From Paracoccaceae bacterium (GTDB taxonomy: Bacteria > Pseudomonadota > Alphaproteobacteria > Rhodobacterales > Rhodobacteraceae): a stretch of DNA of 37,099 nt. The translations under genes and the position numbers were made by a program. Positions within the stretch are counted from its first letter, which is position 1. Every line of letters begins with the position of its first letter. The stretch spans positions 1-37,099 of the forward strand of contig JANTFS010000006.1 in NCBI GenBank assembly GCA_024763335.1, given 5' to 3'. A model generated the notes under the pieces. The model searched no databases. It was not told the origin of the DNA and worked only from the letters and a program-made list of their open reading frames with translations. Positions 17,358-23,322 of this stretch are shown here, piece by piece.

Positions 17358-18314
17358 ATGACCTTCCGCCACCGCCATCTGCTCGGTATCGAACCTCTCC
17401 ACCCCGAGGAGATCACCACGGTGCTCGACCTCGCAGAAAAATACGTTGAGCTGAACCGCCAGCCGAAGAAGCGTTCGAAGGTGCTGCAGGGGCTGACCCA
17501 GATCAACATGTTCTTCGAGGCTTCGACGCGCACGCAGGCGAGTTTCGAGCTGGCCGGGAAGCGGCTGGGCGCGGATGTGATGAACATGGCGATGCAGGCG
17601 TCGTCGATCAAAAAGGGCGAGACGCTGATCGACACGGCGCTGACGCTCAACGCCATGCATCCCGATCTTCTGGTGGTGCGCCATCCCAATTCGGGCGCGG
17701 TGAACCTTTTGGCCGAAAAGGTCAATGCGGCCGTGCTCAACGCCGGCGACGGGCGGCACGAGCACCCCACGCAGGCGTTGCTGGACGCGCTGACGATCCG
17801 GCGCGAGAAGGGACGGCTACATCGGCTCACCATCGCGATCTGCGGCGATATTGCCCACAGCCGGGTGGCGCGCTCAAACCTGATCCTGCTGGGCAAGATG
17901 GAAAACCGGGTGCGCCTTGTCGGGCCGCCGACGCTGATGCCGCCGCGGATCGGGGAATTTGGCGTCGAGGTGTTCGATGACATGCGCGAGGGCCTCGAAG
18001 GCGCCGACGTCGTGATGATGCTGAGGCTCCAGAAGGAGCGGATGGACGGGGGCTTCATCCCGTCCGAGCGCGAGTACTATCACCGTTGGGGGCTCGATGT
18101 GGAAAAGCTGAGCTACGCCAAGGACGATGCCATCGTGATGCACCCCGGGCCGATGAACCGCGGCGTCGAGATCGATGGCACCATCGCCGATGACATCAAC
18201 CGTTCGGTGATACAGGAACAGGTCGAGATGGGCGTGGCGGTGCGGATGGCGGCGATGGATCTGCTGGCGCGCAATCTACCCGAAGCGGTGCAAAACGAGG
18301 GGGTTCTGGTGTGA
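17358..18314 (+). CDS. pyrB: Aspartate carbamoyltransferase catalytic subunit
   Basis: [58 protein letters not shown]. Confidence 0.97.
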
Positions 18315-18859
18315 CCGACCCGCTTGAATTTGGCCCCGACACGGGTTTGCGCGAATTATGGGTGTTTACCCTCTTTGTGCTCTCCGATGAGATCAGCCGA
18401 TGGGAACCGCCGCGCGTGGGCTATCCCGAGCGTGACTGGCCACTGCCCGAGGCGCTCGGGGCGGGCCCGCTCAAACCGACCCACGTTCAGGTGTTCGAGG
18501 CCGGTGATCTTGGCAAGAAAGGGCTGCGAAAGTTGTTGGTCGACGCTCACGGGATGGACGCCGAGCAGGTCGAGGCGGACGCCGACAAGCTCGACATGCT
18601 GCGCGGCACCGTGGTCTTGGTTCTCTCCGGTGCGCTCACCAAACGTCCCGGGCGATTTGACCCGAAACCGCCGACAGCCTTCATCGGGCACTACACCGAG
18701 CCCAGCGATCTCGTGCCCGCGTCGCCGGCAATTCCCCGACCCAGCACGGCGGGCCACATCGAGCCGCCCGCTGCCCCCGCGCCCGACACACGCCGCGGGC
18801 TGATCCTCACGCTCGCGGGGCTGCTGGTCCTCGCGCTCTTGATCCTCGCCTTCGTCTAG
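18311..18859 (+). CDS. Hypothetical C-tail-anchored membrane protein
   Basis: GTG start overlapping the pyrB stop (4 nt); single C-terminal TM ([19 protein letters not shown]). Confidence 0.75.
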
Positions 18860-18876: not shown

Positions 18877-19293
18877 ATGTCATCGACCGTTCCCGCTCTC
18901 GCCGAAGGCGAAACCCTGATCACCACCTTCACCGGCAGCCGCCCGACCTACATAAAGGAGCACGTGATGCTGGCGGCGATCGGCTCGGTGGGCGCGGTCA
19001 TTGTCCTCATGGCGATGGGCAATCCACATGCCTGGACCGGCGTTGTCGGCGCGGTGCTCGCGATTGGCATACGTGGGGTCTACGTTGCCTCGGAACAGAT
19101 CGGGATGACCTGGCATCTCACCGACAGGCGGTTGATAACCCCGGCGGGTATGTCGGTCCTGCGCGGTGACATCGAGAAGGTGCGCACGATCTTTTCGGCC
19201 GCACAGGTCGTCACCCGAAAGGGCGACAAATTCATGATCAAGTATCAGGCAGACCCCGCCGCCACCGCCGCCGCGATTCTGGGAAAAGGCTGA
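18877..19293 (+). CDS. Small membrane protein with bacterial PH-like architecture
   Basis: N-terminal EGETLITTFTGSRP, two TM segments, then WHLTDRRLITPAGMSVLRGDIEKVRTI. Confidence 0.75.
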   Translation: MSSTVPALAEGETLITTFTGSRPTYIKEHVMLAAIGSVGAVIVLMAMGNPHAWTGVVGAVLAIGIRGVYVASEQIGMTWHLTDRRLITPAGMSVLRGDIEKVRTIFSAAQVVTRKGDKFMIKYQADPAATAAAILGKG

Positions 19294-20302
19294 TCACGCC
19301 GAGCCACAGGAACAGCGCCACCCCAATCGCCGGCATCGCAAGAAAGGCGACGGCGGCCAGGCCCTGCCCGAGCGGGGGCGAAACTGCGGTGACAACGATC
19401 TTGGCGAGCCCGACCACAAAGATCGGCAGCAAGACCCCGGCGAAGACATCCCGGGGGCTGCCGCGAACCGGTGCGGTGGTTGCCATGTTTCCGTCGCGCG
19501 GGCTCCGCCAGAGCGCGATTGCCAGCAACGGATAGGCAAGGGCGGTGAGCAGTTGGATCGCAACAGGCGGGCGCCGTTCGGGCAGGAGCATCCAGTAGGT
19601 GACGAGATAGATCGCGGCGAGCCAGACGAATGCGAGGCTGCGTTCACGGGGGCCGAGCAGGGGATTGCGCGCCTGTGGGGGTGTGGTGTCGCGCAGCAGC
19701 CAGGCGGCACCGAGCCAGAGTGCGAGGAGGAGCGGGGCCCAGGTTGCGAGATAGAGGCCGGGATCGGGCATGTTGTTGCCGCTGATCACGCCCCAAAGCG
19801 CGATCAGCCCCCAACGGCGCAGCCGCCCCCACGTGTCCGGCGCGAAGAGCCAGCGCGGGGCGGGAAACCGCGCGCGCCACTCCGGCAGCAGCCACGTCAA
19901 CACCGCAAGCGGGAGCAGAAACGATGTCACCGCGTGGTAGAACAACACCAGCCCCAGCGTTTCATGCACGCCGATCCATGGCCCAAACCCGCCCATCGAG
20001 AAGCCGGGCATATCCGGGTAACCGAACCAGATCACCTTGGTAATCCAGCTCTCGTAGAGCCCGAAGACGATGCCGAGCAGGTAGAGTGCCGGCCAGGAGC
20101 TGCGCTGCATCCGCAGGGCAAGATCGGCCAGCAGGAGAAGGTGCAGCCCGTAGAGGGGCACGCCAAGGATCCAGACGTCCGGCCGCATGAGCCAGAGCTC
20201 GCCGGTGCCGGCAATGACCTCCGGCAATCCGAATGCGAGCAGCGCGGCCCAGAGCAGGAACAGCACCCTGGCCAAGCCGCCACGCCTGTTGCGTGCTTTC
20301 AT
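19238..20302 (-). CDS. Polytopic membrane protein of unknown function
   Basis: 354-aa ORF with multiple hydrophobic segments; convergent 56-bp overlap with the preceding gene. Confidence 0.75.
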   Translation of the reverse strand: MKARNRRGGLARVLFLLWAALLAFGLPEVIAGTGELWLMRPDVWILGVPLYGLHLLLLADLALRMQRSSWPALYLLGIVFGLYESWITKVIWFGYPDMPGFSMGGFGPWIGVHETLGLVLFYHAVTSFLLPLAVLTWLLPEWRARFPAPRWLFAPDTWGRLRRWGLIALWGVISGNNMPDPGLYLATWAPLLLALWLGAAWLLRDTTPPQARNPLLGPRERSLAFVWLAAIYLVTYWMLLPERRPPVAIQLLTALAYPLLAIALWRSPRDGNMATTAPVRGSPRDVFAGVLLPIFVVGLAKIVVTAVSPPLGQGLAAVAFLAMPAIGVALFLWLGVISLFPESRRRWRRGLPDT

Positions 20303-20407: not shown

Positions 20408-20953
20408 ATGGCGGAGCAATCGACCGGCTGGGAAGGGATCCTCGACGCGGGTGAGCGGATCATCTGGCAGGGTCGGCCCGATCCTTCGTTTCACGTCAGC
20501 CCGAAGAAGCTGTTCCCAACCTTGTTTGGCCTTGGCTTTGCCGGGTTTGCCTTGTTCTGGATGGCGATGGCGGCTCAATCCGGCGGCGGGTTCTGGATGT
20601 TCGGCCTGATCCACTTTTCCGTGGGCCTTTGGCTGACCGGCAATTCCCTGTTCGGCGAAAGCCTCAGGCACCGGCGCACGTGGTACACGCTGACCGACAA
20701 GCGGGCCTTTATCGCGACCGACTTCCCGTGGAAGGGTCGCCAGCTCGACAGCTATGCCCTCACACCCGCAACGCGCCTGTCGTTGCGCGGCGGTCTGCCC
20801 GGCTCGGTGATCTTCGCGCGCGAGGAACGGCGTGGCAACAAGGGGCGCCGCTACATGGTCGACATCGGCTTTCATCGCATTGGTGACGCGGAGAAAGTCT
20901 ACGAGTTGATGCGCGGGGTTCAGCGCGCGCACGGGGCGGAGGCCGAGGCGTGA
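20408..20953 (+). CDS. Small membrane protein with bacterial PH-like architecture
   Basis: AGERIIWQGRPDPSFH, two TM segments, RRTWYTLTDKRAFIATDFP. Confidence 0.78.
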   Translation: MAEQSTGWEGILDAGERIIWQGRPDPSFHVSPKKLFPTLFGLGFAGFALFWMAMAAQSGGGFWMFGLIHFSVGLWLTGNSLFGESLRHRRTWYTLTDKRAFIATDFPWKGRQLDSYALTPATRLSLRGGLPGSVIFAREERRGNKGRRYMVDIGFHRIGDAEKVYELMRGVQRAHGAEAEA

Positions 20954-21453
20954 GCGCGCGACCCGATATCGCCGCGGTGCTCGATGCGGACGAAGCGCTG
21001 CTTTGGCGGGGACATCCCAGCGCAGGCCGACGATCAACGGCGAAGGCGACCGCTTTGGGGGCGCTGTTCTACGTCGCGACGATTGCCTTTGTCATATTGG
21101 GGTGGTGGGTCGAGATCTTCCGCGGACATGTGCCGGTCTGGCACCTTGTCGTCTATGCCGTCATCGCGGCGGCGGCTTTCACCGCCTATCTCGGCCTGCG
21201 TGTCACCTTGCTGGACCGGCGCCGGGCGCGGGCGCGCGATGCCCGCACCGCCTATGCCATCACCGACCGCCGGGCGCTGGCCATCGCCGGGCCATACCGC
21301 AGCGAAGTGCGGCTCGGGCCGGAGGTGACGGCGGATTTGTCGGGCGACCTGCTCTTGATCGACGGCCCGGCGGCGCACCTGCGCTTCGAACGGCTTGACG
21401 ACGCGGCGCGGGCGCGCGACATCCTCAACGCGCGGATCCGGGGGAACGCATGA
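20950..21453 (+). CDS. Small membrane protein with bacterial PH-like architecture
   Basis: GTG start; DADEALLWRGHPS, two TM segments, RTAYAITDRRALAIAGPYRSEV; 4-bp overlaps with both neighbours. Confidence 0.78.
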   Translation: MSARPDIAAVLDADEALLWRGHPSAGRRSTAKATALGALFYVATIAFVILGWWVEIFRGHVPVWHLVVYAVIAAAAFTAYLGLRVTLLDRRRARARDARTAYAITDRRALAIAGPYRSEVRLGPEVTADLSGDLLLIDGPAAHLRFERLDDAARARDILNARIRGNA

Positions 21454-22715
21454 CCACCATCACCTTCGAGAATGCCCGTCTGGTCGATCCGGAAGCGGAC
21501 ACTGAAGCCCTCGGGAGTCTCACTGTAGCGGATGGTGCCATCGTCGGGCGCGATCTGGCGCCGCGTGGCGAGATCGTTGATTGCGGCGGCAAGTGCCTTG
21601 CCCCGGGGATCGTCGACATCGGGGTGAAGATCGGCGAGCCGGGGGAGCGCCACAAGGAAAGTTTCAGAACCGCGGCCGCGGCCGCAGCCGCTGGTGGTGT
21701 CACCACCATGGTCACGCGCCCCGATACGACGCCGGCGATCGACTCGCCCGAGACGCTGGCCTTCGTTACCCGGCGGGCACGGGAAGTATCGCCGGTGCGG
21801 GTGCACACGATGGCCGCGCTGACCAAGGGCCGCGACGGGCGCGAGATGGTCGAGGTGGGCTTCCTGATGGATGCCGGTGCCGTGGCCTTCACCGATTGCG
21901 ACCGGGTGGTGACGGATACCAAGGTGTTCGCCCGCGCGCTCACCTATGCCCGCCAGCTCGGCGCGCTGGTCATGGCCCACCCGCAGGAGCCGCAGCTCTC
22001 GCAGGGCGCGGCGGCGACTTCTGGCAAGTTCGCAACGCTGCGCGGGCTGCCGGCGGTCTCGCCGATGGCCGAGCGCATGGGGCTTGAGCGCGATCTTGCC
22101 CTCGTTGCAATGACGGGTGCGCGTTACCATGCCGACAACCTTTCGGCCGCCGCCGCGCTGCCCGCCCTCGAACGGGCCAAGGCCGACGGGCTTGACGTCA
22201 CCGCCGGGGTGAACATCCATCACCTGACGCTGAACGAGCTCGACGTCGGCGATTACCGGACCTTCTTCAAGCTCAAGCCGCCGCTGCGCAGCGAGGACGA
22301 CCGTGTTGCGATGGTCGAGGCCGTCGCCAGCGGGCTGATCGACGTGATCTCGTCGATGCATACGCCGCAGGACGAGGAATCCAAGCGCCTGCCTTTTGAA
22401 GAGGCGGCCTCGGGCGCCGTGGCGCTTGAAACCCTGTTGCCCGCCGCCATGCGCCTCATGCACGCCGGTGCGGTGAGCCTGCCCGCGCTCTGGCGCGCGC
22501 TGTCGCTCAATCCCGCCCGCCGCTTCGGTCTGCCCGGGGGCACGCTGGCGGAGGGGGCGCCGGCCGATCTTGTGCTGTTCGATCCCGACACCCCGTTCGT
22601 GCTGGATCGATTCGCGCTGCGGTCGAAATCGAAAAACACGCCGTTCGATGGCGCACGGATGCAGGGCCGAGTGCTCGGCACCTGGGTTGGCGGCAGACGG
22701 GTTCACGGAGGCTGA
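21450..22715 (+). CDS. pyrC: Dihydroorotase homologue, probable non-catalytic PyrC'-type subunit
   Basis: Dihydroorotase fold-family similarity throughout, but PGIVDIGVKIGEPG replaces the canonical PG(L/I)VDxHVHLREPG and SSMHTPQ replaces TDHAPH. Confidence 0.9.
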   Translation: MTTITFENARLVDPEADTEALGSLTVADGAIVGRDLAPRGEIVDCGGKCLAPGIVDIGVKIGEPGERHKESFRTAAAAAAAGGVTTMVTRPDTTPAIDSPETLAFVTRRAREVSPVRVHTMAALTKGRDGREMVEVGFLMDAGAVAFTDCDRVVTDTKVFARALTYARQLGALVMAHPQEPQLSQGAAATSGKFATLRGLPAVSPMAERMGLERDLALVAMTGARYHADNLSAAAALPALERAKADGLDVTAGVNIHHLTLNELDVGDYRTFFKLKPPLRSEDDRVAMVEAVASGLIDVISSMHTPQDEESKRLPFEEAASGAVALETLLPAAMRLMHAGAVSLPALWRALSLNPARRFGLPGGTLAEGAPADLVLFDPDTPFVLDRFALRSKSKNTPFDGARMQGRVLGTWVGGRRVHGG

Positions 22716-22716
22716 C

Positions 22717-23322
22717 ATGCCCGAGATCACAACATCCCTGCCGTTGCTCGGATTGACCATCATCCTTGGCTATCTGCTCGGCTCGGTTCCGTTCGGCCTC
22801 GTCTGGGCCCGGCTGTTTGGCCTCGGCGATATCCGCGATATCGGGTCGGGCAACATCGGCGCAACCAACGTGCTGCGCACGGGGCACAAGTTTGCGGCCT
22901 TGCTGACGCTGATCGGCGACGTGGGCAAGGGTGCCTTTGCGGTGCTCGTCGCGCGCGCGCTGCTGGGCGACGATGCGGCCCAGCTTGCCGGGCTTTCGGC
23001 CTATATCGGCCATCTCTACCCGGTCTACATCGGCTTTCGCGGTGGCAAGGGCGTGGCTACGTGGCTGGGCACCATGCTGGCGGTGGCCTGGCCGGTGGGC
23101 CTCGCGGCGGCCGCGACCTGGCTCGCTGCGGCGCTGGTCTTCAGGATTTCGTCGCTTGCAGGTCTCGTGGCCGCAGCGCTCGCGCCGATCTGGGCGCTTG
23201 TGCTCGGACGAGGCGACGTGCTGATCCTCGCGCTGCTGCTCGGCGCGCTGATCTTCGCGCGGCATCGCGAAAACATCGGTCGGCTGATGCGCGGCGAGGA
23301 GCCGAAAATCGGGGAGAAATAA
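22717..23322 (+). CDS. plsY: Glycerol-3-phosphate acyltransferase
   Basis: GYLLGSVPFGLVWARLFGLGDIRDIGSGNIGATNVLRTGHK; GHLYPVYIGFRGGKGVATWLG. Confidence 0.97.
   Translation: MPEITTSLPLLGLTIILGYLLGSVPFGLVWARLFGLGDIRDIGSGNIGATNVLRTGHKFAALLTLIGDVGKGAFAVLVARALLGDDAAQLAGLSAYIGHLYPVYIGFRGGKGVATWLGTMLAVAWPVGLAAAATWLAAALVFRISSLAGLVAAALAPIWALVLGRGDVLILALLLGALIFARHRENIGRLMRGEEPKIGEK

Follow-up and report, generated by a model that had tools for sequence, protein, structure and literature searches.

The gene at 21450-22715 of the window, i.e., of the whole 37,099-nucleotide stretch of DNA analyzed here, very probably encodes a pseudo-dihydroorotase (PyrX/PyrC') serving as non-catalytic chain in an aspartate transcarbamoylase (ATCase) of class A2. 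This gene, here called pyrX, is a further case, real but ordinary, of an arrangement already known in Pseudomonas and Sinorhizobium; our literature search found no work on pyrX in Rhodobacteraceae. A scaffold role is supported by the loss of the catalytic Asp and of the zinc ligands of dihydroorotase (DHOase) in a fold predicted to be intact, by purifying selection, by an intact PyrB in a genome in which PyrI was not found, and by a second DHOase gene, a co-occurrence that extends across the class. The points against it are the gap of 3.1 kb to pyrB, the partial state of the class II DHOase gene in this assembly, and one genome, G131, without another DHOase.

The pyrX ORF runs uninterrupted for 421 codons from an ATG at 21450 to a stop codon ending at 22715. 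Its product scores 321.8 bits with TIGR00857 (cut-off, 279), which identifies it as a homologue of the type-I (multifunctional-complex) DHOases. The top model was PRK09059 (NF006558, rhizobial-type), with 524.7 bits, under its strict cut-off of 645; PRK07627 (NF005791, the beta/gamma type of PyrC') gave 358 bits, under its cut-off of 442, and the product thus falls outside that family. Its closest solved relative is the Aquifex DHOase 3d6n (265.7 bits). An AlphaFold2 model showed a complete fold with a mean pLDDT of 94.5, and its top structural match was again the Aquifex DHOase in its ATCase complex (3d6n; TM 0.96, 1.6 A). The free, latent Aquifex enzyme matched less well, largely because of disordered loops, and we give that difference no weight.

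Aligned with Aquifex DHOase, PyrX reads G, K, G, C, H, N, M and Q at the positions of H61, H63, R65, D153, H180, H232, D305 and H309, respectively. The gene and the sites concerned are as follows (Aquifex residues stand to the left of the arrows).

21450-22715, + strand: pyrX (pyrC'-like), catalytically degenerate type-I DHOase homologue of 421 aa (TIGR00857, 3d6n match, predicted model)
21612-21644, + strand: former HxHxREPG metal motif, now VDIGVKIGEPG (H61->G58, H63->K60, R65->G62; Aquifex alignment)
21897-21899, + strand: Cys150, replacing the zinc ligand Asp153 (Aquifex alignment; zinc role of Asp153 from PMC3880350)
21978-21980, + strand: His177, equivalent of His180 and sole survivor among six metal or catalytic residues (Aquifex alignment)
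22131-22151, + strand: ADNLSAA segment (sequence)
22137-22139, + strand: Asn230, replacing the beta-site His232 (Aquifex alignment)
22350-22370, + strand: SSMHTPQ segment (sequence)
22356-22358, + strand: Met303, replacing the catalytic Asp305 (Aquifex alignment)

In Aquifex DHOase, a single catalytic zinc is bound by His61, His63 and Asp153, with Asp305 nearby, and replacement of His180 or His232 by Ala leaves catalysis almost unaffected (PMC3880350). All three ligands are replaced in PyrX (H61->G58, H63->K60, D153->C150); thus, the essential zinc site is wholly lost and the only residue kept is a dispensable one. Where an active type-I DHOase has this zinc site and the catalytic Asp305, PyrX has G, K, C and M, and in addition H309 is changed to Q307. 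Judged from these residues, PyrX almost certainly has no DHOase activity. The sequence-only reading had reported the loss of the metal-binding His residues and of the Arg in VDIGVKIGEPG, the His-to-Asn change in ADNLSAA (H232->N230) and the loss of the catalytic Asp in SSMHTPQ (D305->M303), all of which the alignment with the Aquifex enzyme bears out, with the zinc site destroyed. It had placed the motif at 21606-21641, a couple of codons off its true coordinates, and had understated the extent of the loss, missing both the third zinc ligand (D153->C150) and the retained H180 (H177).

The same changes occur in related genomes. Among the 80 nearest orthologues (72-82% identity, mostly Rhodobacteraceae), position 61 is G in 80, position 63 is K in 79 and position 305 is M in 78; G61, K63, M305 and Q309 are almost invariant, and the His180 equivalent is kept in 80/80. 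Positions 65, 153 and 232 are variable, R65 being replaced by C, G or S and D153 by C, G or A, with Cys at 153 in 66/80. Pairwise Nei-Gojobori comparisons with eight relatives, rough because some pairs are near synonymous saturation, gave dN/dS values of 0.11-0.20 for pyrX, between those of pyrB (0.06-0.14) and plsY (0.11-0.42). Because the loss is common to 80 orthologues and dN/dS is low, sequencing error and pseudogene decay are both ruled out, and the earlier view of an intact, non-decaying ORF holds. The gene thus combines the loss of zinc and substrate-binding residues with a maintained ORF, as in class A2 pseudo-DHOases.

The genes flanking pyrX in this argument are the following.

17358-18314, + strand: pyrB, ATCase catalytic chain (PRK00856, 402 bits, over the cut-off; motifs; PDB matches)
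22717-23322, + strand: plsY, glycerol-3-phosphate acyltransferase, downstream neighbour of pyrX (PF02660, 176 bits)

The start of pyrB was taken as the ATG at 17358 instead of the listed TTG. The STRT, HPTQ, RLQKER and HPGP motifs of PyrB are all intact, and the protein matches the ATCases of Bacillus subtilis and Aquifex in the PDB. pyrX follows pyrB on the same strand after a gap of 3.1 kb; plsY comes next, and it follows pyrX in 76 of 80 related loci as well. In nearly all relatives pyrB is found just upstream of pyrX; the gap between them ranges from 0 to 3.5 kb in Rhodobacteraceae loci, and the two genes mostly abut in the other alphaproteobacteria examined. Linkage to pyrB is therefore conserved and immediate adjacency is not, and the window shows the linkage typical of a class A2 pseudo-DHOase without the adjacency. 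Joint transcription of pyrX and pyrB in the window is doubtful because five predicted genes, one on the opposite strand (19238-20302), fill the 3.1 kb between them. Two of these genes, at 19238-20302 (- strand) and 20950-21453 (+ strand), had no tblastn match at 1e-6 in the 80 related loci and no Pfam match, and look like lineage-specific insertions. The others, at 18311-18859, 18877-19293 and about 20408-20953 (+ strand), encode small proteins, again with no Pfam match, that are found between pyrB and pyrX in 19, 30 and 20 of 80 related loci, respectively.

A genome search located another DHOase gene, in agreement with the proposal of the sequence-only reading that the true enzyme is encoded elsewhere. 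In the assembly to which the window belongs (3.0 Mb, 296 contigs, about 90% complete), a class II DHOase gene (pyrC) stands at the end of contig C65 (L005) and covers TIGR00856 profile positions 133-340. Only its C-terminal 210 residues are present, the N-terminal part having been lost at the contig end; they carry the HGE, EHITT and GTDSAPH segments, and the fragment adjoins, just upstream, a gene that reads as pyrE (orotate phosphoribosyltransferase). This fragment supplies the separate DHOase that goes with a class A2 pseudo-DHOase and rules out pyrX as the only DHOase gene. Within the family, 54 of 61 genomes have a full-length class II pyrC that scores over the cut-off. Rhodobacteraceae loci L209-L212 and L214 (genomes G334, G297 and G321) come from genomes lacking class II pyrC over the cut-off; L209 and L210 are PRK09060-type DHOases in its place, and in G321 a replacement DHOase was sought and not found. 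The other TIGR00857 match of the genome, a paralogue on contig C4, was rejected as the real DHOase, as it aligns better with dihydropyrimidinases; it has an HxH with a Lys ligand region and no HxHxREPG. No PF02748 match (PyrI) was found in this genome, about 90% complete, which argues against a class B, PyrI-regulated ATCase.

The pairing of a degenerate copy with a second DHOase extends through the class. We read 89 alphaproteobacterial copies from a 142-genome class sample, own genome not counted, and labelled them intact or degenerate ourselves from H/Q61, H63, D153 and D305, scoring Q61 as intact since PRK09060 sequences also have Q there. Eighty-four of the 89 copies were degenerate and five intact. 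Another DHOase (TIGR00856 or PRK09060 over cut-off) accompanied 79 of the 84 degenerate copies, and four of the five intact copies had none (Fisher p 2.5e-4, genome relatedness ignored). The five degenerate copies without another DHOase belong to three incomplete genomes (G011, G023 and G127), to G130, which has a partial match below the cut-off, and to the complete G131 (L183/L204). The latter, a single contig at 99% completeness with a degenerate PyrX (RGGGHHDQ), gave no TIGR00856 or PRK09060 match over the cut-offs. Genome G033 (L180/L203, L213) has an intact pyrB-linked DHOase plus a PRK09060-type DHOase, possibly the state before loss of activity.

Characterized relatives suggest how such a protein would work. 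In P. aeruginosa, six catalytic chains and six inactive pDHO chains make up the ATCase dodecamer; without pDHO the catalytic chain stays monomeric and inactive, pDHO being required both for the ATCase trimer to form and for its activity (PMC7053772). Like PyrX, the PyrC' (pDHO) of P. aeruginosa and P. putida is a PyrB-associated protein of type-I fold that has lost its zinc ligands, the real DHOase lying elsewhere (PMC7053772). In Sinorhizobium meliloti, disruption of smc01361, annotated as a DHOase gene and located beside pyrB, causes pyrimidine auxotrophy despite an essential PyrC elsewhere, and the authors of that work gave the product the name PyrX, proposing it to be an inactive DHOase that PyrB requires (PMC5929573). 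The window gene is likewise an alphaproteobacterial DHOase homologue linked to pyrB, proposed to be inactive and accompanied by a separate PyrC; it differs in its distance of 3.1 kb from pyrB and in that the other DHOase of its genome belongs to class II (Escherichia coli type); orthology of the two genes is taken from the description of smc01361 and our class-wide survey. The Aquifex DHOase-ATCase dodecamer (class A1; 3d6n, 4bjh) has the same fold and partner at 35% identity, but its DHOase is active and retains H61, H63, D153, H180, H232 and D305. The pseudo-DHOase domain of the fungal CPSase-ATCase protein Ura2, as described in PMC7053772, is also without zinc ligands and held with ATCase; unlike PyrX, it is part of a eukaryotic fusion protein.

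By analogy, PyrX would keep the whole type-I DHOase fold and have lost the ability to hold zinc and to perform the acid/base step. Its dimers most likely clamp two PyrB trimers into a PyrB6-PyrX6 dodecamer, the part played in Aquifex by an active DHOase; as in Pseudomonas, PyrB probably depends on PyrX for stability or activity. Ring closure of carbamoyl aspartate would be left to the separate class II DHOase. We infer that PyrX is inactive, that it forms a complex with PyrB in this stoichiometry and that PyrB depends on it. The smc01361 auxotrophy, the lost site and the second DHOase support the earlier proposal of a PyrC'-type pseudoenzyme serving the ATCase; two qualifications apply, namely that the window gene is not adjacent to pyrB, with 3.1 kb and five genes between them, and that descent from PyrC' is in question, as set out below.

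PyrX might instead be mainly a regulator acting on PyrB, its old active site sensing a nucleotide or a pathway intermediate, rather than a plain scaffold. With PyrI not found, regulation would need another source, and the near-fixed G61, K63, M305 and Q309 in 80 orthologues suggest constraint on the old pocket. However, nucleotide inhibition in P. aeruginosa is ascribed to destabilization of the dodecamer, not to allostery (PMC7053772), and we regard a mainly regulatory role as unlikely. That PyrX is still an active DHOase, using another metal or none in a site rebuilt around Cys150, Lys60 and His177, appears highly improbable. In Pseudomonas, a third PyrC paralogue, regulated by Zur, is reported to be DHOase-active without zinc-binding residues (PMC2770081), and Cys153 and His180 occur in 66/80 and 80/80 orthologues; yet besides the zinc ligands PyrX has lost the Arg of the motif and catalytic Asp305, the substituting residues differ among relatives (C/G/S for R65, C/G/A for D153), a separate canonical DHOase is almost always present, and the pyrB-linked P. 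aeruginosa homologue is reported to be inactive (PMC7053772). Drift to a function unrelated to ATCase, or decay, is scarcely credible: it could appeal to the 3.1 kb that separate pyrX and pyrB in the window, but runs counter to the full-length ORF, the low dN/dS and the confident, complete predicted fold, to the position of pyrB, shortly before pyrX in nearly all relatives and abutting it in most other alphaproteobacteria examined, and to the pyrimidine auxotrophy of the S. meliloti mutant (PMC5929573).

With PyrX taken as the non-catalytic ATCase chain, the origin of its probable inactivation was approached with trees in which the motif columns were masked, built from PyrX alone and from concatenated PyrB and PyrX. 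The degenerate copies of Alphaproteobacteria form one group, next to two intact copies from the same class (L180 and L169), and the PRK07627-type copies form a separate group. Both data sets require two intact/degenerate changes, and 0/200 bootstrap trees require only one. Forcing a single degenerate group cost 6.3 lnL units with PyrX alone (AU p 0.39) and 35.7 with PyrB+PyrX (AU p 0.115); two losses are thus favoured over a single origin, which the AU test does not reject. If the PRK07627 loci represent the Pseudomonas PyrC' lineage, an assumption made from the family of the model, PyrC' stands elsewhere in the tree than PyrX. At position 65 these loci mostly retain the motif Arg; at position 61 they carry S, A or N, versus R in most alphaproteobacteria and G in the relatives of the window gene. 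The alphaproteobacterial family may, on this phylogeny, have lost activity independently of Pseudomonas PyrC', and for that reason "PyrC'-type" may suit the role of PyrX better than its direct descent.

We consider it likely that the PyrB-bound DHOase has been inactivated at least twice in proteobacteria, in Alphaproteobacteria and in the beta/gamma type, in each case after another DHOase (class II or PRK09060 type) had made its activity redundant, a bifunctional complex repeatedly decaying into an enzyme and a scaffold. Most Alphaproteobacteria in the class-wide sample have a pseudo-DHOase beside ATCase and perform the DHOase step elsewhere. For such genes the plain label "dihydroorotase" is probably a misnomer, and metabolic models would be wrong to give them the reaction. 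Since this one class holds intact as well as degenerate copies, it offers a natural series for the change from enzyme subunit to scaffold.
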